Below, piece by piece: positions 1,960 through 63,255 of a stretch of 64,000 nucleotides of DNA (the stretch's first letter is position 1; the number at the start of each line of letters is the position of its first letter). Where the stretch lies: contig LBMP01000001.1 of the NCBI GenBank assembly GCA_001184205.1, forward strand, positions 353,365-417,364, in the 5' to 3' direction. The DNA comes from Desulfocarbo indianensis (GTDB taxonomy: Bacteria; Desulfobacterota; Desulfarculia; Desulfarculales; Desulfarculaceae). A model generated the notes under the pieces. The model was not told the origin of the DNA, ran no database searches, and worked only from the letters and a program-made list of their open reading frames with translations. The translations under genes and the position numbers were made by a program.

Positions 1960-10701
<8,742 letters not shown>

Positions 10702-14557: not shown

Positions 14558-15502
14558 TTAAGGAGTCGCGGCGCGGCCCGCTTCAGGGCTCAAATCCCCC
14601 CGCGAGCCTTCCCGCCACAGGGCGCATTGGCCGAAGCCCTCCGCGCCGAGATAATTGCGCATGGGGTCGCATTTGATCTGCAGGATGAAAAACACCGGCG
14701 CGGGCAGCCGCCGGGTGCACAGGGTTTCGAAGTTGGCCCCGCCCTTGGATATCACCAGGTCGGCTTGGCGCAGGAGGCTCTTGAACTGCGGAGACACCCC
14801 GGCCCAATCCACCCCCACCCCGCCGTAGCCCGTGTCCGCCACCTGGTCGAAGCGGTCTTCCAGGCCGGTGTTGCGCAGCTCCCGGCGGGTGAGGTCGTTG
14901 AGGGCCGGCGCGCCCTTGACCGCCAAAACCACCCTGCCCGCCCGCTGGCGCAGATAGTCATAGAGCGGCAAGTCGAAGAAGACCTCGCCGGTGTTGTCGG
15001 TGAGGTACAGCACCAGGCCGGGCTGGGCCCGCAGGGCCTCTTCCAGCCGGGCCACGTGGTCGATGCAGAGCTCCACCCGGCTTTTTGCGGCGGTTTCCGC
15101 CTGCTCCATGGCCTGGTCCGGCGAACGGAAAAAATCCAGGTTGTTGCCCAGGGCGGCCAAAAACACCAGGGAGCGCAAATCGCCCCCCACCAGCTCCCTG
15201 GCCCTGGCCGCCACCTGCCGCGCCGCGCCGCTTTCGCTTCGCTTGAATTCCCGGAAGGGGTCCTCCCGCCTGGTGAGGCTTTTCACCGCCCGCAGAATCC
15301 GGTTGGCCACCTGGGGCGAGGTCAGGTTGCGGCCGTCGCCTTCCTCCAGGACTTGCAGGGCCGCCGCCTCGGCCCGGGCGGTCAGCTCGGCGTCTCCCCC
15401 GGCGGCGAACCTGGCGGCCTGCCTGGCCAGACCCGCCAGGCATTGGCGGCACTGGGGGTAGGGGTCCAGGATCTGCTGCTGCTCGTACAATGATTCGGCC
15501 AT
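14558..15502 (-). CDS. DUF89 / ARMT1-like metal-dependent phosphatase
   Basis: This 314-residue protein is of the DUF89 family, whose characterised members are metal-dependent phosphatases thought to clear damaged or inhibitory phosphometabolites. Visible family features are the N-terminal Cys pair in PQCRQCLAGL, ALGNNLDFF near the middle, YLTDNTGEVFFDLPL (about residues 165-180) with the metal-binding Asp-Asn-x-Gly-Glu, and DLVISKGGANFETL (about 245-260). The protein belongs to the prokaryotic Cys-containing subgroup. Its substrate is unknown. It is a single gene on the strand opposite sat. Confidence 0.85.
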   Translation of the reverse strand: MAESLYEQQQILDPYPQCRQCLAGLARQAARFAAGGDAELTARAEAAALQVLEEGDGRNLTSPQVANRILRAVKSLTRREDPFREFKRSESGAARQVAARARELVGGDLRSLVFLAALGNNLDFFRSPDQAMEQAETAAKSRVELCIDHVARLEEALRAQPGLVLYLTDNTGEVFFDLPLYDYLRQRAGRVVLAVKGAPALNDLTRRELRNTGLEDRFDQVADTGYGGVGVDWAGVSPQFKSLLRQADLVISKGGANFETLCTRRLPAPVFFILQIKCDPMRNYLGAEGFGQCALWREGSRGDLSPEAGRAATP

Positions 15503-17118: not shown

Positions 17119-17835
17119 TTATTTGAATTTTTGATCCACGATCGGTCCCATGATTTGCTGGTATTTTCCGCTTTTGCGCAAATCCTCAATCGCCTTGCTC
17201 AGAATGGCGTCCGCCTTTTTGCCGTTGGCGTTCTTCTGCAATACGATCTTGACGTCGAAGGTCTTGTAGGGCTTCCGCTTGATGTCTTTCAGGCCGAGCT
17301 TTTGCAGGGCCGCGTCGCTCTCCACCATGGCGAAGATGAAACCGTCGATGCGGCCGCGGGAGACCTTGCGCAGGCTGCCTTCAATGCTGTCGGAAGGCTT
17401 TATGGGAAATTCGAAATAGTCCACGTGGGCCCGGTCGGTCTCCAGGTTGTATTGTTTGAGATTGGCCATATCCAGGTCTTTTTTGGAATAAAGCACAAAG
17501 ACCACCGAAAAGATGGTCTCCGTGGAATACATGAAATCCAATTTGTTTTCCGGGATCAGGGGGTTCTTCAAGAGCGGCATGTGGAAATCCGCCTGCCCGG
17601 ACACCACGTTGCGGATGGAGCGCGAAAAAGGCGCCACCTCTATGGAGATGGAGCCGCCGGGATAGACCTGGTCGATGGCCTTTACCAAATTCACCAGGAT
17701 GCCTTTTTGCGGCGTCTCCACCAAAGGCGGCAAGATGGGCAAACTGGCCTTGAGGTCCTGAGCGCGACAAAGGGTGGCCATGCCGCAAAGGGAAAGGAAA
17801 ATCAGCACCATCAACAGAGCCCTGGCTTTTCTCAT
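17119..17835 (-). CDS. Periplasmic solute-binding protein, family 3
   Basis: This 238-residue exported protein has a signal peptide (MRKARALLMVLIFLSLCGMA, cleaved about residue 27). The mature part is like the amino-acid-type SBP_bac_3 family: LPPLVETPQKGILVNLVKAI near the start, a VVSGQADFHMPLL turn, and the C-terminal helix ILSKAIEDLRKSGKYQQIMG. The start is set at the ATG with AAGGAG upstream; a longer frame to 17880 lacks a good site. No ABC permease or ATPase is nearby, so it may feed the adjacent chemoreceptor or a distant sensor rather than a transporter. Confidence 0.85.
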   Translation of the reverse strand: MRKARALLMVLIFLSLCGMATLCRAQDLKASLPILPPLVETPQKGILVNLVKAIDQVYPGGSISIEVAPFSRSIRNVVSGQADFHMPLLKNPLIPENKLDFMYSTETIFSVVFVLYSKKDLDMANLKQYNLETDRAHVDYFEFPIKPSDSIEGSLRKVSRGRIDGFIFAMVESDAALQKLGLKDIKRKPYKTFDVKIVLQKNANGKKADAILSKAIEDLRKSGKYQQIMGPIVDQKFK

Positions 17836-18209
17836 GATAACATTCTCCTTTGATAGAATTTTAAAGTTCTGGTTATCCACCAGCAGCCTTTGATGCCCTT
17901 ATCAGACTTCATGGAGTGAAATGCCTGGTGTCCCTCTCCTGGTGTCGGTGATATCAACGCCGTTAAATGGAACGCCGCCCCGCTTATATTGGGAGGCGTT
18001 CAGCCTTTTAAGGAATTGATATTCAATGCAACGGCGATGCCATCCCCAGCGGGATATTTGGGTGTGACTCTCAGGAAGCGAAGCAATGATAATTGCTTGC
18101 GATAAAAGCGATAAGCAGAAGAATCTTCCGGTGATACATATTGAGATCGTTTATGAATAACGAGATATAATCATTTAAATCTTGCCGAGCTATATATAAC
18201 GGCAAAGCC

Positions 18210-18249
18210 AAAAAAGATGCATGCAGCATAATGGCTGCGCATCTTTTTT
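18210..18249 (-). terminator. Terminator-like hairpin downstream of threonine synthase
   Basis: An A-tract plus GATGC pairs with GCATC plus a T-tract (11-bp outer stem), with an inner GCAGC/GCTGC stem and an ATAATG loop. Both strands end in a T-run. On the minus strand it lies about 140 bp after the threonine synthase stop. Confidence 0.75.
18216..18240 (+). repeat. Dispersed 25-bp motif, copy A
   Basis: The copy carries GCATGCAGCA, then TA, AATG-like bases and a closing GCGC in the same register as copies at 20238, 37326 and 63231. Here it is built into a terminator-like hairpin. Confidence 0.5.
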
Positions 18250-20616: not shown

Positions 20617-21405
20617 ATGAACCAGTTGGAAACCATAAGAGCCAAAAAAGGTTTCATCTGCGACATGGACGGGGTGATTTATCACGGCAGGAATTTGCTG
20701 CCCGGGGCCAAGGAATTCGTCAACTGGCTGCAACAGGAGAAAAAGCAGTATTTGTTTCTGACCAACAACAGCCAGATCACCCGCGAAGAGCTGTCCCGAC
20801 GGCTGCAGCGCATGGGGCTCGAGGTGGACCCCCTGCACTTCTATACCGCCGCCCTTTCCACTGCCAGCTTCCTGTACTCGCAGCAGCCCGGCGCTTCGGT
20901 ATACGTGATCGGCGACGCGGGGCTCAGCAACGCGCTCTATGGAGCCGGCTTCGTCATGAACGACCTGGACCCCGACTTCGTGGTGCTGGGGGAGACCCGC
21001 TCCTATTCTTACGAGAAAGTGGAAAAGGCCATAAACCTGGTGCGGGCCGGCGCGCGGCTCATCGCCACCAATCCGGACCTGGCCGGCCCCCACGAGGGCG
21101 GCCTGTTCCCCGGCTGCGGGGCCCTGGCCGCGCCTATAGAACTGGCCAGCGGACGCAAGGCCTATTTCCTGGGCAAGCCCAATCCCTTGATGATACGGCA
21201 TGCCCTGCTTTGCCTGGAGTGCCCCCGGGAGGAGGCGGTCTTCATCGGCGACCAGATGGACACCGACATAATCGCCGGCGTCAATTCCGACATCGACACC
21301 ATATTGGTGCTTAGCGGCATCACCGCCCGCGAGGATCTGGCCCGCTTCGCCTACCGGCCCAAGTACGTCTTGGGCGGGGTGGGCGAGATAGCTCCCGGCG
21401 CTTAA
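20617..21405 (+). CDS. HAD-IIA family phosphatase (NagD-like)
   Basis: This 262-residue haloacid-dehalogenase-superfamily hydrolase is of subfamily IIA. Motif I is ICDMDGVIYHG (residues about 14-24), with the nucleophile Asp and acid/base Asp. Motif II is FLTNNSQ. The motif III Lys is in YFLGKPNP, and motif IV is FIGDQMDTDIIAG. The C2 cap lies between motifs II and III. Relatives dephosphorylate small phosphates such as p-nitrophenyl phosphate, nucleotides or 2-phosphoglycolate; the natural substrate cannot be named. It is followed after 17 bp by a gamma-carbonic-anhydrase-like gene, probably in one transcript. Confidence 0.9.
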   Translation: MNQLETIRAKKGFICDMDGVIYHGRNLLPGAKEFVNWLQQEKKQYLFLTNNSQITREELSRRLQRMGLEVDPLHFYTAALSTASFLYSQQPGASVYVIGDAGLSNALYGAGFVMNDLDPDFVVLGETRSYSYEKVEKAINLVRAGARLIATNPDLAGPHEGGLFPGCGALAAPIELASGRKAYFLGKPNPLMIRHALLCLECPREEAVFIGDQMDTDIIAGVNSDIDTILVLSGITAREDLARFAYRPKYVLGGVGEIAPGA

Positions 21406-21422
21406 CCCCCGGACTAGCCATT

Positions 21423-21959
21423 ATGCTCTATCAATTCGAAGGCAGGTTTCCCCAGGTGAGCCCGGAGGCGTTCGTGCACCCCCAGGCCGTGCTCATAGGC
21501 CAGGTGGCCGTGGCGGCCAATTGCTACGTGGGGGCCGGGGCCGTGCTGCGGGGGGACATCGGCGCGGTGCTGGTGGGGCCGGGCTCCAACGTGCAGGAAA
21601 ACTGCGTGCTGCACACCCTGCCCCAGCGCGAGGTGCGCCTGCACCAGGACACCCACGTGGGCCACGGCTGCATCTTGCACGGCTGCGAACTGCTGCCCGA
21701 GGTGCTGGTGGGCATGGGCTCGGTTATCAGCGACGGGGTGAAGGTCAACTCCCGCTGCCTGATCGGCTCGGGCAGCCTGCTCCTGGCCAATGTGGAAATC
21801 CCCTCGGACAGCGTGGTGACCGGCCGGCCCGCCAAGGTGGTCAAGGCCCTCAGCCCCGGGCAGCTGGAACAGCTGCGCTGGTCGCGCTCGGTGTATCAGG
21901 ACCTGGCGCGCCGCTACCTGCGCTCCTTTTGCGAGATTCCGCCGCAGACCGCCGGCTAG
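21423..21959 (+). CDS. Gamma-carbonic-anhydrase-like hexapeptide-repeat protein
   Basis: This 178-residue left-handed beta-helix protein belongs to the YrdA/CaiE/PaaY group. Hexapeptide repeats run from about residue 15 to 140. Potential metal ligands are the His in NCVLHTLP and the pair in HVGHGCILHGC, the positions used by gamma-class carbonic anhydrases. The C-terminal helix (VYQDLARRYLRSF) is typical. Whether it hydrates CO2 or has a thioesterase or other role is not decided by sequence. It is probably cotranscribed with the HAD gene upstream. Confidence 0.85.
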   Translation: MLYQFEGRFPQVSPEAFVHPQAVLIGQVAVAANCYVGAGAVLRGDIGAVLVGPGSNVQENCVLHTLPQREVRLHQDTHVGHGCILHGCELLPEVLVGMGSVISDGVKVNSRCLIGSGSLLLANVEIPSDSVVTGRPAKVVKALSPGQLEQLRWSRSVYQDLARRYLRSFCEIPPQTAG

Positions 21960-22084: not shown

Positions 22085-23494
22085 TCATTCCGGAGTTTTA
22101 TTCAGGCCGTATTTGCGCAGAAGCCTTTGCAGGCTGCTGCGGTGCATGCCTATGCTGCGGGCGCTCTTGGCGATGTTCCAGTTGTGCAGCTCCAGCAATT
22201 GGCCAAGATAATTAAACTCGAAGCTGGCTATCACCTCTTTCTTGGCCGCGCGGAAATCAGGCAGCTCTTCCTGGCGTTTCTCCGTCAACTGTTGCTCTCT
22301 GCTGTCCAAAAGGCTGGCGCTCCTCACCGTCTTCACCTGGTCCAGCAGGTGCTCCTCGCGCAGGGCGTTGCCCGTGCAGGTGATGATTCCGTGCTCGATG
22401 ACGTTTTTAAGCTCGCGGATGTTACCGGGCCAATCGTGGCTCACCAAGAGCTTGACGGCGTCCTGGGAAATCTTGGTCACGTTGCGGCCGATCTTCTTGT
22501 TGACCAGCTGGATGAAATGCTCCACCAGGGGAATGATGTCCTCCTTGCGCTCGCGCAGGGGCGGCAGGGTGATGGGCACCACGTTGAGGCGGTAAAAAAG
22601 GTCGCTGCGGAACTTGCCCTCCTTGACGAATTCCTTCAGGTTGCGGTTGGTGGCCGCCACGATGCGCACGTCGGTGGCCCGGTAATGCTCCGAGCCGATG
22701 CGCCGGAACTCGCGGGAGTCCAGCACCCGCAGAATTTTGGCCTGCAGGGTGATCTGCAGCTCGCCGATCTCGTCCAGGAACACGGTGCCGCCGCTGGCCA
22801 CGTCGAACAGCCCCCGCTTCATGCGGGTCGCGCCGGTGAAGGCCCCCTTTTCATGGCCGAACAGCTCGCTCTCCAGAAGGTTTTCCGGCAGCGCCGTGCA
22901 ATCGATGGTCACGAAGGGCTCGCCGGCCCGCTGGCTGTGCTTGTGGATAAGAGAGGCGATGAGCTCCTTGCCGGTTCCGGTCTCCCCATAGATCATCACC
23001 GTGGAGGGAGTGGCCGCCACCTGGCGGACGTATTCCAGGATGTCGTCCATCTTCTTGCTGCGGGTTATGAGCTCGCCCATCTGGGTGCCGGAGATCTGGT
23101 GCTCCAGGGCCTGGATGCGGTCCTGCAGCCCCAGGAACATCAGCGCCTTCTTGATGACGATCTTGATGTCCTCCGCCTCGAAGGGTTTGGTGATGTAATC
23201 GAAAGCGCCCATTTTTATGGCGGTGACCGCGCTGTGGATGTCGCCGTAGGCCGTGATGATGATCACCGCCGCCTGGATGTCTATGTTCTTTATGGTCTCC
23301 AGCATCTCCAGGCCGGAGATGTCCGGCAGGTTCAAGTCCAAGAGGACCACGTCCACGTGGTTTTCCATCAGGTACTTGAGACCCTCTTTGCCGTAGCGGG
23401 CGGTCATGGTCTCATAGCCGCTCTTGGCCAACGAATAGCCCAGGTATTGTCTTATGTTGTCTTCATCGTCGATAATCAGGACGCTGCTCTTCAT
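22085..23494 (-). CDS. Sigma54-dependent response regulator (NtrC family)
   Basis: This is a 469-residue activator with three domains. Receiver, residues 1-120: acidic pocket IIDDED and phospho-acceptor Asp53 in LLDLNLPD. AAA+ sigma54-interaction domain, about 145-375: Walker A GETGTGKELIA, the sigma54-contact loop GAFTGA, Walker B FLDEIGE. Fis-type helix-turn-helix at the end: NIAKSARSIGMHRSSLQRLL. The ATG at 23494 has AAAGGA upstream; the longer frame to 23578 is not needed. The kinase gene lies upstream in the same direction (229 bp gap). With a sigma54 promoter at the head of the nearby catabolic cluster, it is the natural candidate regulator of that cluster. Confidence 0.95.
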   Translation of the reverse strand: MKSSVLIIDDEDNIRQYLGYSLAKSGYETMTARYGKEGLKYLMENHVDVVLLDLNLPDISGLEMLETIKNIDIQAAVIIITAYGDIHSAVTAIKMGAFDYITKPFEAEDIKIVIKKALMFLGLQDRIQALEHQISGTQMGELITRSKKMDDILEYVRQVAATPSTVMIYGETGTGKELIASLIHKHSQRAGEPFVTIDCTALPENLLESELFGHEKGAFTGATRMKRGLFDVASGGTVFLDEIGELQITLQAKILRVLDSREFRRIGSEHYRATDVRIVAATNRNLKEFVKEGKFRSDLFYRLNVVPITLPPLRERKEDIIPLVEHFIQLVNKKIGRNVTKISQDAVKLLVSHDWPGNIRELKNVIEHGIITCTGNALREEHLLDQVKTVRSASLLDSREQQLTEKRQEELPDFRAAKKEVIASFEFNYLGQLLELHNWNIAKSARSIGMHRSSLQRLLRKYGLNKTPE

Positions 23495-23723
23495 TACGCA
23501 TTCCTTTATGGCTTGTACATTCACTGACGTTCCGAGCGTCCAGCTCAAGTCGGGGCGTGCCTGGTTATTCGTCACCATTCCCGCCGCGCTCCACCTTGGT
23601 CAAAAGCCTACACAAAAAACCCTTTTTTGACTCTCATTTCATGGCGGGCCCGTGGCTAAAACCTGGGCGGCGATTGCCAGCCGCCCGACCCGGGTTCGCA
23701 AACGGCCGGAGCCCGCCCCGCTC

Positions 23724-24833
23724 TCATCTATCCGGGCTGGGCGGCAGCATGGGGATGCCGATCTCCACTATGGCGCCCCTGCCCGCCTCCCCCCGCACCT
23801 CGATCTTCCCGTTATGGGCCTTGAGGATTTCCCGACAGATGGACAGCCCCAGGCCGGTGCCCTTGGGCTTGGAGCTGAAATAGGGCGTGAAGACGTAGCC
23901 GCCCATCTCCGGGTCCAGGCCGTGGCCGGTGTCCTCCACCCGTATCCACAGGCTTTGGCAACTGGCGGGCGCGTTGGGGTCGTAGGGGCCGATGAAGGTG
24001 GTCACGGTGATGGCCCCCTCTTCGGTGATGGCGTCGATGGAGTTGAGAAAAATGTTCAAGAGCGCCTGATATATCTCGTCGCGGTCGATGAACACGTAGC
24101 GGTCGTCCAGGGCCAGGTTGTAGTTGACGGCAATGCTCTTGTTGGCGATCTGCCTGGTCAGGTTGGCCATGATGTCCTTCAGGATGTCTTCCAGAACCGC
24201 TATGTTCTCTTTTTTGAGATTGGGGAGCCCGCGGCGGCTGCGCAAAATGGAGTTCACGGTTTTCTTGATGCGCTCCAGGTCCTTCATCACGTTGTCCAGG
24301 ACCTGGATGTTCTCCGGCAATTGCAGGCTGTCGTACAAGGTGGCCAAGCCCAGCTTGATGCCGGTCAGCGGGTTGCTGACCTCATGGGCCAGGGTGTAGG
24401 CCATGTCCCGGAAGGAGGAGAACTTGGCGGCGGTCACGTTGATCCGCTCCAGTTCCTTCTGATGGGTGAGGTCGTTTATCACCGACATGACGTGGGTCAG
24501 ACGGTTGTTCACGTCGAAGATGGGGATGGATTTGGCCGAGAGGTAGCGATAAACCCCATTGGGCGAGACATAGGTGAATTCGTGGGGGCAGCTTTCCTCC
24601 CCGCTTTCCGAAGTCCGCCGCAGCCGGGACACGATGGCCTTTTTATGCTTGCTGTCGAACTCGGGCAGGAACTCCATGGGCGAGCGGCCCAGGGCCTCCT
24701 CCTTTTTAATCTCGAAGACCGATTCGAAAACCTCGTTCACGAACACCGCCCTGAGTTGCAGATCATGCAGAATCACCACCGTCCCCAGGTTGTGGATGAT
24801 TCTTTCGCTGACGTGGTCGTCTATGACCTGCAT
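23724..24833 (-). CDS. PAS-domain sensor histidine kinase
   Basis: This is a 369-residue soluble kinase with no membrane segment, so it senses a cytoplasmic signal. A PAS domain (about 10-125) is followed by the dimerisation/phosphotransfer helix, with His150 in LAHEVSNPLTGI. The ATPase domain has the N-box NIFLNSIDAI, G1 DTGHGLDPE and G2 GTGLGLSICREIL. The start at 24833 is chosen because AAGGAG precedes it; a frame extension to 24995 is Ala/Lys/Pro-rich. It is the likely partner of the sigma54 response regulator just downstream. Confidence 0.93.
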   Translation of the reverse strand: MQVIDDHVSERIIHNLGTVVILHDLQLRAVFVNEVFESVFEIKKEEALGRSPMEFLPEFDSKHKKAIVSRLRRTSESGEESCPHEFTYVSPNGVYRYLSAKSIPIFDVNNRLTHVMSVINDLTHQKELERINVTAAKFSSFRDMAYTLAHEVSNPLTGIKLGLATLYDSLQLPENIQVLDNVMKDLERIKKTVNSILRSRRGLPNLKKENIAVLEDILKDIMANLTRQIANKSIAVNYNLALDDRYVFIDRDEIYQALLNIFLNSIDAITEEGAITVTTFIGPYDPNAPASCQSLWIRVEDTGHGLDPEMGGYVFTPYFSSKPKGTGLGLSICREILKAHNGKIEVRGEAGRGAIVEIGIPMLPPSPDR

Positions 24834-25059: not shown

Positions 25060-26151
25060 CTATGCTTCTGGAGGTCGTTCCTCGGGACCGAGCGGAGGTC
25101 CGGGGATCGACCACGGGGCCCGCATGAAGAAGAACTGGTGCATCAGAAGAATCACCGCCGCCACGTGCAGGGTGAAGAAGGCCGAAAGCATGTTGATGTC
25201 AAAGGGACCTTCCGGCGCCGCGAACTTGAGCTCCACCATGCGCGCGTACACCGGCGAGAGGATTATGCGCAGCAACACGATCCAGGCCGCGGTGAGGATG
25301 ATCTCCTCCAGCAGGAAATTCAAAACCCCGCGTTTGGGCTGGACGTGTTTGGCAAAGGGGAACATCTCGAACGCCACCGCGTGCATCAAGGACCAGCCGA
25401 TCATGCTGGCCCCCACCGCGCCGAAGGAGAAGGTGGGGGAGACGCCCAGGCGCAAGCCGCCTTCCCAGCAGGCGTAGCCCAGGACGATGACCGCCACGAA
25501 GATGCACACCTGGGGCAGGGGCTTGGGCAGCTTGTAAAAGGGCCAGCCCTGCAGGCACATGGTTCCGCCGAAAACCTGCACCCAGACGATTATCCACACC
25601 ATGAGGCCGAACCAGTAGCCGGACGGGAAGACCCCGTTGGGATCGTGGGGGGTGTTGTCCAAGGGGGTGCCGGCCATGTCCACGAAGATGAACCAGACGA
25701 TCCAGGTGACCACCATGATGACCACGGTGGCGGCCGCCCAGTTGGCCACGGCGTTGGGGCTGCCGTCCTTGTTCTTGAAGGGATGCGGCCCCACTCCGTC
25801 GAAGGAGTACCACAGGGTGACGCCGAAGACGATGATGCCCAGGGACGGGTTCATGGGAACTCCCGGAAAGACCCGGCTGGTGAAAAGGTTGAGGATGACG
25901 GCGTAGGCCAGCCACACGGCGCACATCAACAGGCCGGGCAGCAGCCGGTTGTCCGGTTTCCAAAGCTTGCCCATGGGAGCGGCGAAGGGCCAGCCCAACC
26001 CGCAAACGCCGAAGGTCACCAAGCCCATGAGCAGAAAGAAGGACGGCGGCAGATAATCCTGGAAGAACCAATCCAGGGGCACGAACATCATGAACAGCCA
26101 GGCGGCGGCAACCACCAATGAAAAACGCAACAAGGCTTGCGGTAACGGCAT
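25060..26151 (-). CDS. Polytopic membrane protein of unknown function
   Basis: This 363-residue protein has about nine or ten hydrophobic helices and Trp-rich loops (for example TWIVWFIFVDMAG, WFGLMVWIIVWVQVFGG). I do not recognise a characterised family and see no ATP-binding or known carrier signature. Short conserved-looking His/Asp/Asn loops (HPFKNKDGSPNAVANW, NTPHDPNGVFPSGYW) could face one side of the membrane. The start is the ATG at 26151 behind GGAGGT. It is the last gene of the minus-strand cluster, 99 bp after the swivelling-domain subunit, so a role in substrate uptake or membrane delivery is plausible but unproven. Confidence 0.6.
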   Translation of the reverse strand: MPLPQALLRFSLVVAAAWLFMMFVPLDWFFQDYLPPSFFLLMGLVTFGVCGLGWPFAAPMGKLWKPDNRLLPGLLMCAVWLAYAVILNLFTSRVFPGVPMNPSLGIIVFGVTLWYSFDGVGPHPFKNKDGSPNAVANWAAATVVIMVVTWIVWFIFVDMAGTPLDNTPHDPNGVFPSGYWFGLMVWIIVWVQVFGGTMCLQGWPFYKLPKPLPQVCIFVAVIVLGYACWEGGLRLGVSPTFSFGAVGASMIGWSLMHAVAFEMFPFAKHVQPKRGVLNFLLEEIILTAAWIVLLRIILSPVYARMVELKFAAPEGPFDINMLSAFFTLHVAAVILLMHQFFFMRAPWSIPGPPLGPEERPPEA

Positions 26152-26197
26152 ATGTACCTCCCTCTCTGTCGTCATAACCGGGTCAGTCCGCAGCGGC

Positions 26198-26250: not shown

Positions 26251-27951
26251 TCAATGCACTGCCCTCTGCAGGACCTCGACCACGCCCACGTTGCCGTCGA
26301 TCTTGATTATGTCGCCGTCGTTTATGGAGTTGGTTGCGTTCCAGGTGCCCACCACCGCGGGGATGTTGTATTCCCGGGCGGCGATGGCGGCGTGGGTCAG
26401 CATGCCGCCGGTGTCGGTGACCACGCCCGCGATCTTGACGAACAGGGGCGTCCAGGCCGTGCCGGTATAGGGGCAAACCAGGATTTCGCCGGCCTGCACG
26501 TTCTGGAAGTCCTTGTAGTCCATGACCACCCTGGCCGGGCCCTCCACCTCGCCGGGAGAGCCGGGGAAGCCTTCCATGCGCTCGGCCACTTCGCGCTCGC
26601 CCTTGGGGTGCAGAACGTCGTCGATGATGCCGAAGACCTTGATGCCTATGGGGTCGGTCATCTTCTCGGGAATGGTGCCCACGGTCAGCGGCGCTTCCAG
26701 CCCCTGGACCATCTTGGCGTCTTCCTTGCGCTCGCGGACCATGTTGGGCACCAAGGCGCTATAGTGGTAAATTGCGCATTTTTCATTGTTCACCAGGGCC
26801 TGCATGACCTCCATCAATTCATGGAAGGTCAAGTAGACCACGTCCTCGATGGCTTCGATGAGCCCGCGCCGGAACAGGCGTTTGCCGCAGGCCATGACCG
26901 CGTTGTGCAGGGCGGCGGTGGACCCCTGGTCGATGTAGAAGCCGTGATCCTCCTGGAAGGCGTAGACGCCTTGGCCGGCCTTGAGCAGCTTGCGGAAGGT
27001 CTCTCTCTCTTCCTCGGGCAGGGAGGCCTCGAAATCGACGATGGCCTGCTCGCGCTCCTGTTTGATGTTTTGTTTGGACTCGAAGAAATCCCAGCCGCTG
27101 TCCATGCGGGGGAAATAGCCCTTGAGGGTGTCGATCACCGGGACGGGCTCCTCCAGCCAGGTCGGCGTGTTGACGTCCAAATGGGCCGCCACCACCCGGT
27201 TGCCGTAGATTTCCAGGAAGCGGTTGAATTTGTTCATCCAGGGCCTGGCCTGCTCCATCTTCTTGAGCTCGGCGAAGGCCTCCTCGGCGGGCTTTTCCAG
27301 GATCAGCTCCTTGAGCCCGCATTCCGCGGCGTACTTGGCCAGCCCCCAAAGCTCCTCATCGGTCTGGGTGGCGATGGACTCGAAGCCGCGCAGCATGATC
27401 ACGAAGTCTTTTTCCTCGAGGCCGTGCTTGTTGCAGAATTCCTCGAATCCGAAATAGACCGCGTCCGCCGGGTACATGAGCTTGAAGTGGATTTCCCAGT
27501 GCCGGCGGTTGAGGGCTTCGGCCCGCCGCAGGTGCTCCAGGAGGTGGGGCATGATGAGCTTGTCGGTGTCCACCCCGTTCAGGGTGTCCAGGTTTTTCAT
27601 CACCTCGGTGATGAGGCCCTTGTAGTACTCATCCCAGTGCTCGATGCAATACTCCACCAGCTGCCCGAATTTTTCCGCCCGCTTGCCTATCTCCGCCTCG
27701 TCGCTGATCAGGGCGAAACCCAGATAGACCCTGCCCTTGTAAATCTTCACGTGGCCGCCCTTGGAGGGGGGCAGGCTGGTTTCCTCGGCCGCCACGTGAT
27801 AGCCCCAGGCATGATGGGACTGCACGGTGGTCATGCCCATGGGGGTTATGGCATACGGCTGATGCAGGTCGTCCCGGAACCAAAATATGGATTTGTCAAA
27901 ATCCGTGTCGGGTCTGAGTGTTCTTAATGAACTGGTGTTGCGGTCTAACAT
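26251..27951 (-). CDS. PEP-utilising-enzyme subunit with swivelling phosphohistidine domain (phenylphosphate-synthase subunit-1-like)
   Basis: This 566-residue protein matches the central and phosphohistidine part of PEP synthase but lacks both the ATP-grasp domain and the C-terminal PEP/pyruvate TIM barrel. The mobile domain is at the C-terminus: PYTGTAWTPLF, then GGMLTHAAIAAREYNIPAVV with the phospho-acceptor His at about residue 520. The long N-terminal part (HHAWGYHVAAEE, HWEIHFKLMYPADAVYFGFEEF) should bind the acceptor substrate, as in phenylphosphate synthase and rifampicin phosphotransferase. Size (about 64 kDa) and architecture fit the large subunit of phenylphosphate synthase. The matching ATP-grasp piece is at 36048-37013 in the same cluster. 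The actual acceptor is unknown. Confidence 0.8.
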   Translation of the reverse strand: MLDRNTSSLRTLRPDTDFDKSIFWFRDDLHQPYAITPMGMTTVQSHHAWGYHVAAEETSLPPSKGGHVKIYKGRVYLGFALISDEAEIGKRAEKFGQLVEYCIEHWDEYYKGLITEVMKNLDTLNGVDTDKLIMPHLLEHLRRAEALNRRHWEIHFKLMYPADAVYFGFEEFCNKHGLEEKDFVIMLRGFESIATQTDEELWGLAKYAAECGLKELILEKPAEEAFAELKKMEQARPWMNKFNRFLEIYGNRVVAAHLDVNTPTWLEEPVPVIDTLKGYFPRMDSGWDFFESKQNIKQEREQAIVDFEASLPEEERETFRKLLKAGQGVYAFQEDHGFYIDQGSTAALHNAVMACGKRLFRRGLIEAIEDVVYLTFHELMEVMQALVNNEKCAIYHYSALVPNMVRERKEDAKMVQGLEAPLTVGTIPEKMTDPIGIKVFGIIDDVLHPKGEREVAERMEGFPGSPGEVEGPARVVMDYKDFQNVQAGEILVCPYTGTAWTPLFVKIAGVVTDTGGMLTHAAIAAREYNIPAVVGTWNATNSINDGDIIKIDGNVGVVEVLQRAVH

Positions 27952-28671: not shown

Positions 28672-29796
28672 TTATTGCAACACGTAGCGTGCGATCAAGA
28701 GCTTTTGGATCTCCTCGGTGCCTTCCTCGAAGTGATAGGAGCGGGCGTCCCGGAAATGCCGCTCCAGATCCGAGGTCTGGGTGTAGCCGACGCCGCCGTG
28801 GATGCGCAGGGCCAGCTCGGAGACCCTGGTCACCACCTGCTCGGCGAACAGCTTGGCCATGGCCGCTTCCTTCACGATGTCCTGGCCCTGATCGAACTTC
28901 CAGGCCGCCCGGTAGGCCAAAAGCCGCGCGGCCTCGATCTCGGTGGCCATCTGGGCCAGGTTGTTCTGCACCGCCTGGCGCTTGGCCAGAAGCTTGCCGA
29001 AGGTCACCCGCTTCTTGGCGTAACGCACCGCCAGGTCCAGGCACTTCTGGGCCAGGCCCACGCAGCAGAAGGCGATGGAGACCCGGCTTAAGTGCAACAT
29101 GCCGAAGGCCACGTCCAGGCCGGCCCCCTTCTGGCCCAGCTGGTTTTCCACCGGCACCTTGCAGTCCTTGTAGACCACGTTGTAGTGCCGCGGCCCCACG
29201 CAGCCCATCATCTTGGGCATAGGTTTCAGCTTCACGCCGTCGTTGGGCAGGTCCACCAAAAAGGAAGTGATGCCCCCCTCCGTGGCGGCGAAGGCGTAGA
29301 TCAGCTTGGTGTAGCCGGGGAACAAGGTGATGAGCCATTTGTGGCCGTTCAGCACGTAATGGTCGCCCTTGAGCTCGGCCTTGGAGTTGATGTCCTTGCC
29401 GGTGCCCGCCTCCGGCTCGGTAAGGCTGTTGGCGGCCCAGATCTCGCCGCTGGCCAAAAGCGGCAGGTATTTCTTTTTCTGCTCCTCGCTGCCGAAATAA
29501 AGCAGGGGCCGCCAGAAAAGGCCGTTCATGGTGTGGGCGATCAGCCGCACCGTGGCGTAAGCCTTGGAGAGCTCCTCCAGCACGGAGAGCCATTGCACCA
29601 CGCTCCAGCCCTGGCCGCCGTATTCCTTGGGGATGGTCAGCCCGAAGAATCGGCCCTTTTTCAGCTCGGCCACCAGCTCTTCCGGCAAGCGCTCCTCTTC
29701 TTCCAGGGGTCGCGAAAGGGGGTCCAGCACATCGCTCACCCAACGGCGCGCTTCCTCCTGGTATTTCAGAATCTCGGGCGATAAGCTAAAGTCCAT
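28672..29796 (-). CDS. Acyl-CoA dehydrogenase
   Basis: This 374-residue FAD-dependent enzyme has the standard three-part fold. The FAD-binding middle region carries SLTEPEAGTGKDINS (about residues 120-135). The C-terminal helical domain has RVTFGKLLAKRQAVQNNLAQ and ends with RIHGGVGYTQTSDLERHFRDARSYHFEEGTEEI. The Glu in FEEGTEEI occupies the usual catalytic-base position of most family members. It would oxidise an acyl-CoA to the 2,3-enoyl-CoA with an electron-transfer flavoprotein as acceptor. The start is set by AAGGAG before 29796. It is tightly linked to the SDR gene (24 bp), pointing to oxidation of a CoA-bound intermediate in the same pathway. Confidence 0.93.
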   Translation of the reverse strand: MDFSLSPEILKYQEEARRWVSDVLDPLSRPLEEEERLPEELVAELKKGRFFGLTIPKEYGGQGWSVVQWLSVLEELSKAYATVRLIAHTMNGLFWRPLLYFGSEEQKKKYLPLLASGEIWAANSLTEPEAGTGKDINSKAELKGDHYVLNGHKWLITLFPGYTKLIYAFAATEGGITSFLVDLPNDGVKLKPMPKMMGCVGPRHYNVVYKDCKVPVENQLGQKGAGLDVAFGMLHLSRVSIAFCCVGLAQKCLDLAVRYAKKRVTFGKLLAKRQAVQNNLAQMATEIEAARLLAYRAAWKFDQGQDIVKEAAMAKLFAEQVVTRVSELALRIHGGVGYTQTSDLERHFRDARSYHFEEGTEEIQKLLIARYVLQ

Positions 29797-29820: not shown

Positions 29821-30582
29821 TCAGCCGATCATGGTCAGGCCGCCGTCAATGCTCAACACCTGCCCGGTCAGATAGCTGGAATCGTCTCCCACGAAAAAGG
29901 CCACCACGTTCGCCACGTCCTGGGGCGCGCCCAGGCGGCGCAGGGGTATGGACTTGGTCACGGCCTCGGTCACGCGCTGGCCTTTCTCGCCTTCGTGCAG
30001 CCTGTCCCACAGCTCGGTTTTGACCGGGCCGGGCGACACGCAGTTGACCCGGATGTTGTAGCGGGCCAGTTCCTTGGCCAGGGCCTTGCTGCTGGCCATG
30101 ATGGCCGCCTTGGTGCCGCAGTAAAGCACTTCGCCGGGGTTGCCGATGCGGCCGGCGTCCGAGCCCAGGCTCACGATGTTGCCGCTGTTCTGCTCGATCA
30201 TGTAGGGGATGCAGACGTGGCTGGCGATGAGGAAGCTGCGGTAGTTGACGTTGATGATCAGTTCCCAAAGCTCGGGGTCGGTTTTGACGAAGGGCAGGCC
30301 CCGGTCGATGCCGGCGTTGTTGATCAGGATGTCGATGGAGCCGAGCTTTTCATGCGTCTGGGCCACCGCTTTCTTGACCTGGTCGTAGCTGGTGACGTCG
30401 CACTGGAAGGAAAGCGCTTCCACGCCCCCCTCGCGCGCCTGGCCGGCCACCTCCTGGCCCGGCCCGTCTTGCAGATCCAGCACCGCCACGTTGGCGCCCT
30501 CCTCGGCCAGGCGCAAGGTTATGGCCTTGCCGATTCCATTGGCCCCGCCGGTGATCACCGCGTTTTTACCCTTGATGCTCAT
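29821..30582 (-). CDS. Short-chain dehydrogenase/reductase (BadH/FabG-like)
   Basis: This is a 253-residue classical SDR. It has the cofactor motif TGGANGIG (residues about 11-18), an Asp at about 36 (AVLDLQD) favouring NAD, NNAGID at about 88, the catalytic Ser in LGSDAG, and YCGTK at about 154-158. Its overall similarity is to 2-hydroxyacyl- or 3-hydroxyacyl-CoA dehydrogenases such as the alicyclic BadH group, and the neighbouring acyl-CoA ligase and dehydrogenase support a CoA-ester substrate. Exact substrate specificity is inference. Confidence 0.9.
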   Translation of the reverse strand: MSIKGKNAVITGGANGIGKAITLRLAEEGANVAVLDLQDGPGQEVAGQAREGGVEALSFQCDVTSYDQVKKAVAQTHEKLGSIDILINNAGIDRGLPFVKTDPELWELIINVNYRSFLIASHVCIPYMIEQNSGNIVSLGSDAGRIGNPGEVLYCGTKAAIMASSKALAKELARYNIRVNCVSPGPVKTELWDRLHEGEKGQRVTEAVTKSIPLRRLGAPQDVANVVAFFVGDDSSYLTGQVLSIDGGLTMIG

Positions 30583-30605: not shown

Positions 30606-32264
<1,659 letters not shown>

Positions 32265-32370: not shown

Positions 32371-33501
32371 CTAGGGTTTAGGCGGAGCTATGCTGCCGTC
32401 CTTTTTCTTCCACTGGACGCAGGTGACCTCTTCGAAGGCCCCCTCCGCCTCGCGGCATTCGTTACAGTAGATGCACTTGAGGATTTCCTTCTCCCTGCCC
32501 TCCCGGCTCTTTTTGGGCCAATAGGGATCGCAGAGAATGGGCCGGGCGATGCCGATCAGGTCGGCTTGCCCGTCTTGCAGAATTTCCTCCGCCACCTTGG
32601 CGGTGGGGATGCGGCCGGCGGTGATCACCGGCGTGGAGTGCCCGCCGTTGCGCAGGGTCTGCCTTATGTCGGCGGCCAGGTAGACGTTCACCTTTTCCTG
32701 CATCCACTTGGGCGGCATGCTGCGGTGGCCGCTGTAGCCGGTGTAGGGGTCCAGGGCCTCGCCCTCGCGGGGAACGGCGTCCTCGAAACGGCCGCCGGCC
32801 GATACGCTGACGTAGTCCAGCCCCAGCTCCGCCAGGCGGGAGGCGATGGGGCGGGACTGGTTGAGGGCGTTGCCGCCCAGGGTGAATTCATCGCCGTTGA
32901 TGCGGGCGCCCAGCACGAAATCGTCGCCCACCGCCTGGCGCGAGGCGATCACCACGTCCTCGGCCAGGCGCAGGCGCCCCTTCAGGCTGCGGCCGTATTC
33001 GTCTTTGCGGTGATTGTGGCGGGAAAGGAAGGAACTCATGGTGTAGGCGTGGGCATAGTGCAGCTCAACCGCGTCGAAGCCGGCCTCGCGGGCTCGGGCG
33101 GCGGCGGCGGCAAACAGGAGAGGAATCTCTTTCACCTCCTCCAGGCTCAGGTCTTCCACTTTTTGCCGGTAGCCGCTGCGGGCGATTTTCAGGAAATGAA
33201 TGATCTGGGGAGCTATCTTGGCGTCGCTTTCGGAGTGCACCCGGTCGGTGAGCTCCTTGAGGCCGGGGATGAACTCGTCGTGGTTCAGGCGAAGCAGCTG
33301 CCCGCTTTTCTGCTCTTTCACGGAGACCGCCTCGGTGATGACCAATCCAGCCCCGCCCTGGGCGTATAACAGATAGCGTTGGATGAGCTCTTCGGTGACT
33401 TTTCCCTCCACCGTGGCCAGGCGCGTGACAACCGGCGGCATGACTATGCGATTGGCTAGCTCCAGCTTGTGGCCGATGTTGAACGGCTCGAATAGTAACA
33501 T
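32371..33501 (-). CDS. Old-Yellow-Enzyme-type flavin oxidoreductase with Cys cluster
   Basis: This 376-residue FMN TIM-barrel protein is of the OYE/2,4-dienoyl-CoA-reductase branch. Active-site features are HYAHAYTMSSFLSRHNHRKD (about residues 165-185) with the substrate-anion-binding His pair and YGRSLKGRLRL. A C-terminal Cys motif, CIYCNEC plus a later Cys, resembles the [4Fe-4S] ligands of dienoyl-CoA reductases. Unlike the full-length enzymes, it stops there and lacks the FAD/NAD(P)H domain, so electrons must come from a partner protein. Reduction of an activated C=C bond in a ring or enone is the likely chemistry. Confidence 0.88.
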   Translation of the reverse strand: MLLFEPFNIGHKLELANRIVMPPVVTRLATVEGKVTEELIQRYLLYAQGGAGLVITEAVSVKEQKSGQLLRLNHDEFIPGLKELTDRVHSESDAKIAPQIIHFLKIARSGYRQKVEDLSLEEVKEIPLLFAAAAARAREAGFDAVELHYAHAYTMSSFLSRHNHRKDEYGRSLKGRLRLAEDVVIASRQAVGDDFVLGARINGDEFTLGGNALNQSRPIASRLAELGLDYVSVSAGGRFEDAVPREGEALDPYTGYSGHRSMPPKWMQEKVNVYLAADIRQTLRNGGHSTPVITAGRIPTAKVAEEILQDGQADLIGIARPILCDPYWPKKSREGREKEILKCIYCNECREAEGAFEEVTCVQWKKKDGSIAPPKP

Positions 33502-33551: not shown

Positions 33552-34169
33552 CTACATGGTTTTAGCCAACGAAAGCATGAAATCAAAAACATCGCGCTGG
33601 CGGGACAAGGCCCGCAATCCCATGGCCCTTCTCACGCGCTCCAGCTTGCTTTCCGCCTGCTCGCCCGCCAGATCCTGGGGAGAGATATTTTCCTTGGCCA
33701 TGACCTCGGCCATTTCTTTTTTCACCTGCTCCAGATCATTGCCGGCGGCGGATAGCGAATAGAAATGATCGGTCTTTTTCCCCTCGCGCAGCGACTTTTC
33801 CTCCTGCAAGGAAAAAGAGCCGCCAAAGGTGATCGACTTCAATTCTTGCGGCCGCCGGTTTATCTCGACGAGATGGGGATAGCCATCCGGCTTGTGCAAA
33901 GACAGGCGGCCCACTTCCTCCAGGCGGCTGATCACGTAATAGCGGTTGATCTCCGCGCAGCTCCCAGCGACCTTCACCACTTCGCGCGCGCCGTCGGCCC
34001 AGGTGAGCAGCACATATTTGGCGTCGTCCGAAACGCCCAGGGGGCGGCTCAAGGCCGGCTGGCGCTCCAGCTCCTGGCGCAGGGAAAGCGGCAGAGAGTC
34101 CCAATCAAGGCCCACCCGCAGGCCGTCATTGAAATCGACAGTGATTTTAGTAGGTTTCCTGGATGGCAT
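33552..34169 (-). CDS. Uncharacterised 205-aa cluster protein
   Basis: I do not recognise a family. The protein is soluble, with no signal peptide or membrane helix. It starts MPSRKPTKITVDFNDGLRVG, contains a beta-rich centre (YVLLTWADGAREVVKV, CAEINRYYVISRLEEVGRLS) and ends in a charged helical region with a heptad-like pattern. It starts 1 bp after the preceding HAD gene stops, so it is translationally linked to it. Its size is close to the small third subunit described for phenylphosphate synthase, but I cannot see that subunit's CBS-type repeats, so equivalence is only a guess. Confidence 0.6.
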   Translation of the reverse strand: MPSRKPTKITVDFNDGLRVGLDWDSLPLSLRQELERQPALSRPLGVSDDAKYVLLTWADGAREVVKVAGSCAEINRYYVISRLEEVGRLSLHKPDGYPHLVEINRRPQELKSITFGGSFSLQEEKSLREGKKTDHFYSLSAAGNDLEQVKKEMAEVMAKENISPQDLAGEQAESKLERVRRAMGLRALSRQRDVFDFMLSLAKTM

Positions 34170-34170
34170 G

Positions 34171-34911
34171 CTAGGATTCCTTCTTGGTCAGGATTTTTTT
34201 AAGCTCCGAGAAGTGACCGATCTCCACGTCGGCCTTGGAGGGGCCCAGGTCTATGAAGCCGGTGTACTTGATGGTTTTGAAGCCGCGCTCATGGGCGGGG
34301 TTTATATCGGTGGCCGGCTTGTCGCCCACCATCACCGCCTCGGAGGGCTCTATGCCCTGCTCGCGCAGTTCTTCGGCCAAGACATCGTATAGCGTGCCTT
34401 CTTTTTTGGTGAATCCCTTGTATTTAAGGTCAATGCTATCGTCAAGCAGATCGATTTTTCCCTGGGGCGTGACAAGTTTTTTGAAATACTTTACGAGCCC
34501 GCGGTTTTTAAGAAAACGCGACACGATATCGGTTCCCACCGGCCCCAAGGTCTTTTTCATCTCCGAGACCACCATGAGCTCTATGCCCTGCGCCTGTAGG
34601 TATTGCAGGGCATCTTCCAGCCCTTCGCCCATGTCCAAAAGGAGCTGCTCGTTCTTGCTGAATAACTCTATGGCCTCGGGATCATCGTCCAGGACGTAAC
34701 TATAAATCTCGTCGCGATGGCCTTCCTTGATGCTGCTGTAGGTGCCGTATTTTTCCTTCAGCACCCGATACTTGTATATTTTTTCCGGAATGAGTTCGGG
34801 ACGGCCTAATTCTTTATAGATTTCGCCGAACAGAAGTGGATTGCGGAGCCCGCCCGGCTCCATGATGCATTGCCCGTAGTCGAAACCGCACCACTTGACT
34901 TCCATGATCAT
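34171..34911 (-). CDS. HAD-superfamily protein with atypical motif I
   Basis: This 246-residue protein has HAD fold landmarks: motif I CGFDYGQCI at residues about 8-16, motif II MVVSEMKK, Lys-rich candidates for motif III (PQGKIDLL, KGFTKKEG) and motif IV AVMVGDKPATDINPA. The nucleophile Asp is present, but the acid/base Asp two positions later, normally needed for phosphatases, is replaced by Gly. It may therefore be a non-hydrolytic or different-chemistry HAD protein. A HAD-type subunit is known in phenylphosphate carboxylase, which makes the context suggestive. ATG at 34911 or 34905 can serve as start. Confidence 0.75.
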   Translation of the reverse strand: MIMEVKWCGFDYGQCIMEPGGLRNPLLFGEIYKELGRPELIPEKIYKYRVLKEKYGTYSSIKEGHRDEIYSYVLDDDPEAIELFSKNEQLLLDMGEGLEDALQYLQAQGIELMVVSEMKKTLGPVGTDIVSRFLKNRGLVKYFKKLVTPQGKIDLLDDSIDLKYKGFTKKEGTLYDVLAEELREQGIEPSEAVMVGDKPATDINPAHERGFKTIKYTGFIDLGPSKADVEIGHFSELKKILTKKES

Positions 34912-35004: not shown

Positions 35005-36033
35005 TTAGGGCATGGGGGGCAGATTGAACAACTTTTCGAAGTTCGCGCCCAGAATCATGTCGATTTCGTTCTGCTTGAGACCGGCCTGCTGGCCCAGGTC
35101 CTTGACGGCCTTGATGGCGCCCTCGGGATCGCCCACGCGGTGGGCGTAATCGGTGCCGATGCCCATCTGGCCGGGGCCCACCCACTCCAGGCAGCACTTC
35201 ATGGCCGGCAGGTAGAAGCTGGTGGTGTCCGGGTAGACGCAGCGCTTGTAGGTGAGGTCCGGAGACTCGGAGAGCTCGATGCCCCATTCCTTGCCGTAGC
35301 CCTTGTAGGAATCCTGCAAGCGGCGCACGAAGTAGGGCACCATGCCGCCCAGGTGGCCGTGCACCATGCGCAGGTTGGGGAACTTCTCGAACTTACCCTG
35401 GAAGATCATGCCCAAGACGGCCATGGAGGTATCCAGGGTGTAGGCCCAGAGCTGGTAGGGAATCTTCATCTTGTCCATGATGGGACCGACCAGGGGGTTG
35501 GCCGGGTGCACCAGGGCGGGCAGCTTGTGCTTATTGGCCAGCTCCCAGATGCCGTCGAACTTGGGCAGAAAGACCGGCTCGCCGGCGAAATTGGAGAACA
35601 TCTGGATGCCCTTGCAGCCCATCTTCACGCAGCGCTCCAGCTCCTTCACGGCCTCGTCGGGCGACTGATAGGGCAGGGTGGCCATCCAATAGAAGCGGCC
35701 GGGGTATTTTTCCTCGGCCTTCTTAAGGGCGTCGTTGCACTTCTTGGACCAATAGATGCCGTTTTCCGGCTCCAGGGTATCGGGTCCCGGGATGGTGACG
35801 CTGATCACCTGGGTGTCCAGGCCGGCGGCGTCCAGGTCCTTGATGCGGGCCTCGAGGTCATAGTGGCCAGGGCGGTCGATGTGCGCGCAAGCCACGCCGT
35901 TGTAATAGCCCCGATAGTGAGAGCCGCCGTCATGCTCCATGTAAGGAGACGCATCGCTGCCCCTGCTGCACAAATAATCCAGATACTCTTTGGGGTACCA
36001 ATGGTTGTGAACGTCAACGGTTCTTTGGGCCAT
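35005..36033 (-). CDS. Amidohydrolase-2 family protein (decarboxylase/hydrolase type)
   Basis: This 342-residue TIM-barrel protein is of the ACMSD / gamma-resorcylate decarboxylase-like group. The N-terminal metal motif is VDVHNHWYP. A His on a later strand is in PALVHPANP (about residue 170), RMVHGHLGGMVPYF carries another (about 230), and the C-terminal Asp is in MGIGTDYAHRVGDPEGA (about 290). Family members perform metal-dependent decarboxylation, hydration or hydrolysis of cyclic acids. The ATG at 36033 has AAGGAGG; the extension upstream overlaps the preceding gene. It is the second gene of the cluster, 14 bp after the ATP-grasp subunit. Confidence 0.88.
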   Translation of the reverse strand: MAQRTVDVHNHWYPKEYLDYLCSRGSDASPYMEHDGGSHYRGYYNGVACAHIDRPGHYDLEARIKDLDAAGLDTQVISVTIPGPDTLEPENGIYWSKKCNDALKKAEEKYPGRFYWMATLPYQSPDEAVKELERCVKMGCKGIQMFSNFAGEPVFLPKFDGIWELANKHKLPALVHPANPLVGPIMDKMKIPYQLWAYTLDTSMAVLGMIFQGKFEKFPNLRMVHGHLGGMVPYFVRRLQDSYKGYGKEWGIELSESPDLTYKRCVYPDTTSFYLPAMKCCLEWVGPGQMGIGTDYAHRVGDPEGAIKAVKDLGQQAGLKQNEIDMILGANFEKLFNLPPMP

Positions 36034-37013: not shown

Positions 37014-37150
37014 CGTTGTTTTTTACCGCTCCAGCTATTTATTTCGAGACCATTTGACCAGGCGTTACTTGGCGACGCCTGAGTTGTCCTCTCTCGGTTA
37101 AAACGCGGTAATCTTTATGATCAGTAAAATGTTTGACGGCCTCTTATTGT

Positions 37151-37165
37151 GCAATGAGGATGCCA
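37151..37165 (-). promoter_or_regulatory. Sigma54 (-24/-12) promoter of the catabolic cluster
   Basis: On the minus strand the sequence reads TGGCATCCTCATTGC: TGGCA at -24 and TTGC at -12 with the exact GG-to-GC spacing required by RpoN. It is preceded by TG and followed by ACA. It lies about 140 bp upstream of the ATP-grasp subunit start. A sigma54-type activator and kinase are encoded at the other end of the cluster. Confidence 0.8.
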
Positions 37166-37204
37166 CACCGAGGCGTAACGAGCTAAGCCCGCATAACGGT
37201 TATA

Positions 37205-37278
37205 CAATATTGATATTGCGTTCATTAGAGCGCCCCTGACCCTGTTTTGAGGCAAAAACAGGCAGTTGGTGAACAACT
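37205..37278. promoter_or_regulatory. Inverted repeats upstream of the sigma54 promoter (possible activator sites)
   Basis: There are three dyads: CAATATTGATATTG (37205-37218), CCTGTTTT/AAAACAGG (37241-37262) and AGTTG/CAACT (37264-37278). They lie about 40-115 bp upstream of the -24 element, the usual range for enhancer sites bound by NtrC-type regulators. Confidence 0.45.
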
Positions 37279-37325: not shown

Positions 37326-37350
37326 GTTGCATGCAGCACGAATGATGCGC
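37326..37350 (+). repeat. Dispersed 25-bp motif, copy B
   Basis: It reads GTTGCATGCAGCA, two variable bases, AATG, two variable bases, GCGC. It is preceded by the same AAAAAG as copy A and lies about 160 bp upstream of the sigma54 promoter. Confidence 0.5.
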
Positions 37351-62753: not shown

Positions 62754-62993
62754 TCAGTCCACCAGGATGATCTTCACCTTTTTACCGACCCAGGCCAGGG
62801 GCACGTACACCCGGCCGCAATCCCCGCTGGGCCGCACTTCCTTTTGAATCAGCTCGCTGCCGTACAGCTCCATCTTGGTCTTGCTGATGTTGTCCGCGCA
62901 GGAAACGCCCTCCCCGGATTGGCTTCCATAGGAATCGCAAAGCCGGGGCAATGACCTGATAGGCAGGACCTTCTTTTTGGTAGCGTTGGCCAT
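62754..62993 (-). CDS. DUF2080 family (transposon-encoded-type) small protein
   Basis: This 79-residue protein has a C-terminal segment, ELIQKEVRPSGDCGRVYVP, then LAWVGKKVKIILVD, which matches the DUF2080 group of AbrB-like, putatively transposon-encoded proteins known mainly from archaea. The N-terminal half is basic (MANATKKKVLPIRSLPRL). It probably acts as a small DNA-binding or antitoxin-like protein, but this is inferred from the fold alone. The start is set at the ATG at 62993 (weak AGGT); the frame runs up to 63047. No transposase is adjacent. Confidence 0.7.
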   Translation of the reverse strand: MANATKKKVLPIRSLPRLCDSYGSQSGEGVSCADNISKTKMELYGSELIQKEVRPSGDCGRVYVPLAWVGKKVKIILVD

Positions 62994-63126
62994 GGTTACC
63001 TGAATCAATTTGACCTGTTCAAGGTTGAGGAAATATCCGCTGCCCACCTGTTAAGCAAGCGGGATGCCAGCGCGGGCCCAAGCAGGCCATCCTGCATAAA
63101 TGCTTAATAATATATGATAAAAATAG

Positions 63127-63230: not shown

Positions 63231-63255
63231 GCTGCATGCAGCAAGAATGAAGCGC
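63231..63255 (+). repeat. Dispersed 25-bp motif, copy C
   Basis: It reads GCTGCATGCAGCA (GCTGCATGCAGC is a perfect palindrome), two variable bases, AATG, two variable bases, GCGC, in the same register as the copies at 18216, 20238 and 37326. Confidence 0.5.

Follow-up and report, generated by a model that had tools for sequence, protein, structure and literature searches.

The window (the whole stretch of 64,000 nucleotides of Desulfocarbo indianensis DNA analysed here) contains a catabolic cluster encoding twelve proteins, including a histidine kinase and a response regulator, all on the minus strand. The host genome is probably that of a sulfate-reducing bacterium. The cluster and the promoter at its head (hereafter referred to as P1) comprise the following features.

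37326-37337, no strand assigned: candidate upstream activator site (UAS) for P1, with the minus-strand sequence GCTGCATGCAAC, 172 bp 5' of the -24 element
37150-37165, minus: σ54 promoter P1, TGGCATCCTCATTGCA, a consensus match with orthologous promoters in the related loci L061 and L109
36048-37013, minus: first cluster gene, for a PpsB-like ATP-binding subunit (PPDK_N)
35005-36033, minus: Amidohydro_2 protein of the ACMSD / gamma-resorcylate decarboxylase family (AMH)
34171-34911, minus: HAD-like protein, conserved with the cluster
33552-34169, minus: uncharacterised 205-aa protein (U205), conserved with the cluster
32371-33501, minus: OYE-type NADH:flavin oxidoreductase (OYE)
30606-32264, minus: AMP-forming acyl/aryl-CoA ligase (LIG)
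29821-30582, minus: SDR dehydrogenase, with BadH as its closest NCBIfam match, under the cut-off
28672-29796, minus: acyl-CoA dehydrogenase (ACAD)
26251-27951, minus: PpsA-like subunit with the PEP-utiliser mobile domain, separated from the acyl-CoA dehydrogenase gene by about 720 bp
25060-26175, minus: predicted membrane protein, 371 aa
23724-24833, minus: soluble PAS histidine kinase (HK), with its ATG at 24833
22085-23494, minus: NtrC-type σ54-activating response regulator (RR), recognition helix HRSSLQRLLRK

The PPDK_N-type and PEP-utiliser mobile-domain subunits are encoded separately, as in phenylphosphate synthase, which the split PpsA/PpsB pair resembles; no match to a UbiD-type carboxylase was found among the twelve cluster proteins. 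In addition to the 720-bp gap before the PpsA gene, there are further gaps before the kinase and regulator genes, and a search for σ54 sites gave nothing convincing in the ACAD-PpsA gap or ahead of the membrane-protein and kinase genes. A decayed gene in the 720-bp gap was considered and rejected, as this stretch has no similarity to the genes occupying that place in relatives. In the related loci L062, L063 and L068, PpsA is preceded by apparent genes for a branched-chain-type ABC transporter set and a binding protein, to which L062 and L063 add a second amidohydrolase; the window lacks these genes and has the non-coding gap at that place.

Several other features of the window and of this genome were recorded. 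Genes for a HAD-IIA phosphatase and a gamma-carbonic-anhydrase-like hexapeptide protein face the regulator gene (20617-21959, plus strand). Relatives of the latter lie directly 3' of PpsA in L062 and L068, and L079 has relatives of the HAD-IIA gene close to its regulator gene; both genes thus travel with the cluster. The genome also encodes a second PpsA-like protein (44% identity; positions 10368-12158 of L070, G000:C111:160000-179999), which is next to a gene for a product that resembles, by eye, ARMT1/DUF89 proteins. L078 has a similar gene beside its kinase gene, and the window has a Pfam ARMT1-like gene at 14558-15502. A large CRISPR-like array, with minus-strand ORFs reading through its tandem repeats, occupies 7059-10459 of the window.

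The first-pass annotation placed a σ54 activator with a GAFTGA motif and a soluble PAS kinase at 22085-24833, and the domains are as it described. The regulator contains a receiver domain (PF00072), a σ54-AAA domain (PF00158) with GAFTGA and a Fis-type HTH domain (PF02954) according to Pfam, and the LLDLxLPD motif with the phospho-acceptor aspartate of the receiver domain was aligned. The kinase has PAS, HisKA and HATPase_c domains only (Pfam), without the V4R sensory domain of PcrS-type phenolic sensors, and lacks any hydrophobic stretch of membrane-spanning length (best 19-residue hydrophobic mean of 1.15). This absence of a transmembrane segment is the one feature suggesting that the PAS domain may sense a cytoplasmic substrate. 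Orthologs of the regulator with about 60-63% identity were found in four other genomes (G444, G445, G446 and G105), the next-best NtrC-family proteins having 41-44% identity. The recognition helix RSS(L/F)QRL(L/M)RK is common to all five orthologs and differs from that of two other NtrC-type proteins aligned, RPNFxAL(L/M)RK. In an even sample of 395 genomes from the phylum, a regulator ortholog (E ≤ 1e-140) was present in two, this genome and G105, and only the same two encode a PpsA-like protein with at least 75% identity; G288, a third genome, has a PpsA relative at 57% and no regulator ortholog.

P1 was claimed in the first-pass annotation as a minus-strand -24/-12 element with exact spacing, and the claim holds: TGGCATCCTCATTGCA at 37165-37150 has the canonical GG-N10-GC spacing and lies near the consensus TGGCAY-N5-TTGCW, with the start codon of the PpsB-like gene 152 bp downstream. 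Taken alone, the match proves little, since one-mismatch -24/-12 matches in the window are no commoner than in shuffled sequence (4 seen versus 4.6 expected) and are thus at chance level. Genome-wide, pattern searches identified 32 sites with the exact consensus at the right spacing, versus a total of 17, or about three to four each, at the wrong spacings (2, 2, 3, 4 and 6 places for spacers shorter by 2 or 1 and longer by 1-3, in a by-hand tally of TGGCAY sites over the first 100 entries in a list of 111). From this control, the right spacing is about nine-fold enriched, and about one in nine exact sites would be expected by chance. The genome encodes RpoN (PF04552, E 5.1e-65).

A palindrome of the form TGCTGCATGCA(A/G)C lies further upstream of P1, beyond the interval reported earlier (37151-37278). 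Measured from the start of the -24 element, GYTGCAYGCARC is at -172 in the window, -147 in L061 and -145 in L078; the motif was read by eye from these three sites, and the P values given below are therefore indicative only. Three further palindromes, which were not used in defining the motif, were found upstream of two other promoters in the window (P2 and P3) and in the related genome G446 (L109; GTTGCATGCAGC, at -149 from the -24 element). The palindrome thus precedes the same first gene, encoding PpsB, in three other genomes, at 145-149 bp upstream, one of these promoters being degenerate. The initial T and G of the extended motif, TGYTGCAYGCARC, are invariant across the six aligned sites. 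The two other promoters and their first genes are as follows.

18216-18227, no strand assigned: candidate UAS of P2, GCTGCATGCATC, 185 bp upstream of the P2 -24 element
18027-18042, minus: σ54 promoter P2, TGGCATCGCCGTTGCA
17119-17835, minus: periplasmic solute-binding protein, weak SBP_bac_3 match, first gene after P2
15536-16936, minus: methyl-accepting chemotaxis protein, next after the binding-protein gene
63231-63242, no strand assigned: candidate UAS of P3, GCTGCATGCAGC, 173 bp upstream of the P3 -24 element
63054-63069, minus: σ54 promoter P3, TGGCATCCCGCTTGCT
62754-62993, minus: 79-aa protein, weak DUF2080 match, first gene after P3

The 79-aa protein is one that we take, from the DUF2080 match, to be AbrB-like. 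Each of P1-P3 is organised in silico as a σ54 promoter with an upstream activator site, the palindrome lying within the range of 145-185 bp upstream. Among the 30 exact σ54 sites read in this genome, the palindrome (with no more than one mismatch, within 400 bp upstream) was found at P1-P3 only; 0.12 such sites would be expected by chance, versus the three seen (P~2e-4, indicative because the motif was recognised by eye). Likewise, P1-P3 were the only ones among the UAS-like sites checked in this genome to have a strong -24/-12 element at the right distance, and the other sites checked were rejected as further regulon members. We infer from these patterns that the kinase-regulator pair probably runs a local regulon, with P1, P2 and P3 lying within 45 kb.

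The relatives with the same cluster were consistent with this organisation. In L061 (genome G444), the genes PpsB-AMH-HAD-U205-PpsA-membrane protein-HK-RR lie in one orientation, with TGGCATGCCTCTTGCT 80 bp before PpsB; in L109 (G446), PpsB-AMH-HAD-U205-OYE-LIG-SDR are ordered as in the window, with TGGCATGGCTTTTGCT 81 bp before PpsB. The -24/-12 element is therefore conserved in L061 and L109, and so withstands the check proposed in the first-pass annotation, conservation in relatives that have the cluster, which the inverted repeats described below fail. In L078 (G105), HK-RR lie directly 5' of PpsB, with a degenerate TGGCAT-N5-TTGAT between them. A divergent σ54-like promoter, GGGCATGGTACTTGCT (L061: 5786-5801, minus), was found before OYE in L061, 184 bp from the palindrome of the PpsB promoter, which may thus serve two promoters.

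A composite pattern of the two elements, TGCAYGCA-N(135-175)-TGGCAY-N5-TTGC, was searched for in 66 genomes, which include metagenome assemblies, many with short contigs. It was found in three of the five regulator-positive genomes, with three copies in this genome (G000) and matches in G444 and G446 as well, whereas the 61 others had none (association P~2e-4, again indicative for a motif seen by eye). The absence of the regulator from these 61 was tested directly for the members of the phylum sample; the remainder were taken as regulator-negative on the grounds that they have either no PpsA relative or a distant one. Of the two other regulator-positive genomes, G105 is a weak case, without the exact composite, with a degenerate -12 element and one mismatch in the UAS, and no UAS was found in G445, the contig of which starts inside the cluster. 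Of the 395 phylum genomes, only this one contains a stricter form of the composite, in three copies that all lie within the window. The cluster of G288 (L069) lacks the regulator ortholog, the palindrome and a strong -24/-12 element, and has an IclR-like gene instead (by eye); it was therefore rejected as a case of conservation and used as a negative contrast.

The computation directly shows the promoters, the palindrome common to them, the distance between the two elements and the joint occurrence of palindrome and regulator. On this basis, we consider it likely that the kinase-regulator pair drives the catabolic cluster through the σ54 promoter and the palindrome, and P2 and P3 likewise. RpoN-RNA polymerase would bind the -24/-12 element at 37165-37150. 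The soluble PAS kinase would respond to a cytoplasmic cue, which is most likely to be the substrate itself or an early product, and would phosphorylate the NtrC-type regulator; the regulator would bind the palindrome TGYTGCAYGCARC, located 145-185 bp before the -24 element, and, once bound, drive open-complex formation through DNA looping. The same site would control P2 (binding protein and chemoreceptor) and P3 (the small AbrB-like protein). As the same site is present at all three promoters, the pair would coordinate the breakdown of, and probably chemotaxis towards, one substrate class. The route from PAS kinase to NtrC-type regulator to RpoN promoter proposed in the first-pass annotation is strongly supported by comparative genomics: other genomes with the cluster also have the promoter, the kinase and the regulator, and this genome has an RpoN gene. 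The part that did not stand concerns the activator site, which is most likely to be the palindrome outside the interval reported earlier. The proposed regulon is also wider than in that annotation, which names neither P2 nor P3.

The promoter and palindrome might be real and yet be the target of another σ54 activator, encoded elsewhere in the genome, with the adjacent pair controlling something else. The genome has many NtrC-family candidates (144 in a loose first look) and, in Desulfovibrio vulgaris, one cluster has two candidate neighbouring activators, only one of which binds the site (PMC4641369). Such an arrangement nevertheless appears improbable here, given that the regulator ortholog and the composite co-occur (3/5 versus 0/61), that the linkage is kept in L061 and L078, with the UAS between RR and PpsB, and that the recognition helix is conserved.

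A much less probable alternative is that the activator binds inverted repeats lying closer to P1. Three such repeats were claimed in the first-pass annotation; repeats are indeed present 27-113 bp upstream of P1 (37193-37278, minus strand), modestly non-random and not conserved, and we count four.

37264-37278, minus: repeat 1, AGTTGttcacCAACT-type
37241-37262, minus: repeat 2, CCTGTTTT-N6-AAAACAGG
37205-37218, minus: repeat 3, CAATATcaATATTG, overlapping a one-mismatch IHF-like sequence
37193-37203, minus: repeat 4, ATAACcGTTAT

Their arms measure 8+8, 6+6, 5+5 and 5+5 bp, and this number of repeats was reached in about 2.5% of dinucleotide shuffles, a weak departure from chance. Their position would suit an activator site, in that the largest share of σ54 promoters in D. 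vulgaris lies within 100 nt of the site (PMC4641369). However, none of the repeats recurs in the five related promoters (P2, P3, L061, L109 and L078), whereas the palindrome at -145 to -185 does. The regulatory role claimed for the repeats was therefore rejected: with no cognate promoter conserving them, they are probably not the activator's site. CAATATCAATATTG overlaps the one-mismatch IHF-like site, providing an alternative reading of that repeat. IHF sites were themselves rejected as a conserved feature, as one-mismatch matches were found in most of the promoters, at inconsistent positions, as expected in A+T-rich DNA. Finally, that the -24/-12 match is fortuitous and the cluster transcribed from a σ70-type or other promoter has a negligible probability in our view, even with the share of chance matches estimated above, as the position before PpsB is kept in L061 and L109, paired with the UAS, and a scan of the intergenic DNA as far as 37400 gave no σ70-like match.

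With control by the kinase-regulator pair as the preferred reading, the catabolic cluster becomes part of a defined regulon that can be tested and that has a precisely placed candidate activator site. Searching with this site could reveal further members of the cluster, and the binding protein and chemoreceptor, under the same proposed control, provide an independent handle on the substrate. More speculatively, and with a rather low likelihood, the cluster might encode an undescribed anaerobic pathway, in which the PpsAB-like dikinase would phosphorylate a phenolic or other hydroxylated substrate and the ACMSD/gamma-resorcylate-decarboxylase-type amidohydrolase, with help from the neighbouring gamma-carbonic-anhydrase-like protein, would carboxylate or decarboxylate it, replacing the UbiD enzyme; through the PAS two-component system, this pathway would be linked to a periplasmic sensor and a chemoreceptor of its own.

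Several known systems resemble the one proposed here. In Aromatoleum aromaticum EbN1, σ54 activators (PheR, PcrSR and EtpR) lie beside anaerobic phenolic clusters (PMC10715001). PcrSR, at the p-cresol cluster, is likewise a two-component system with a σ54-type regulator among anaerobic phenolic-degradation genes with a σ54 consensus promoter, but PcrS has a V4R phenol-binding domain, whereas the kinase described here has PAS as its sole sensory domain (Pfam), and the enzymes differ (PMC10715001). The pps-ppc cluster of the same strain also has a σ54 promoter before its phenylphosphate synthase genes, and the flanking σ54 activator PheR is needed for ppsA1 expression; unlike the pair in the window, PheR is a one-component activator of the DmpR/MopR type (PMC10715001). 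The alpha and beta subunits of phenylphosphate synthase (Thauera aromatica; Desulfatiglans anilini, PMC6114531) similarly correspond to a PEP-synthase-like enzyme split into ATP-binding and mobile-His-domain genes, but in the window the two genes are about 8 kb apart and accompanied by an Amidohydro_2 protein of a decarboxylase family, with no UbiD-type carboxylase seen in the cluster. The σ54 regulome of D. vulgaris Hildenborough, a sulfate reducer, is similar in its small regulons (usually of one to four operons), linked enhancer-binding proteins and specific sites, and was deduced by the same method of inference (PMC4641369). The string TGCA had no match in the text of that paper, the site logos of which are in figures and supplements, and no earlier description of the palindrome was found in the open full-text literature, the single match being an unrelated neuroscience paper. 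This type of switch is therefore well known, whereas the regulator, its binding site and the three-promoter regulon are, as far as the open literature was searched, new.
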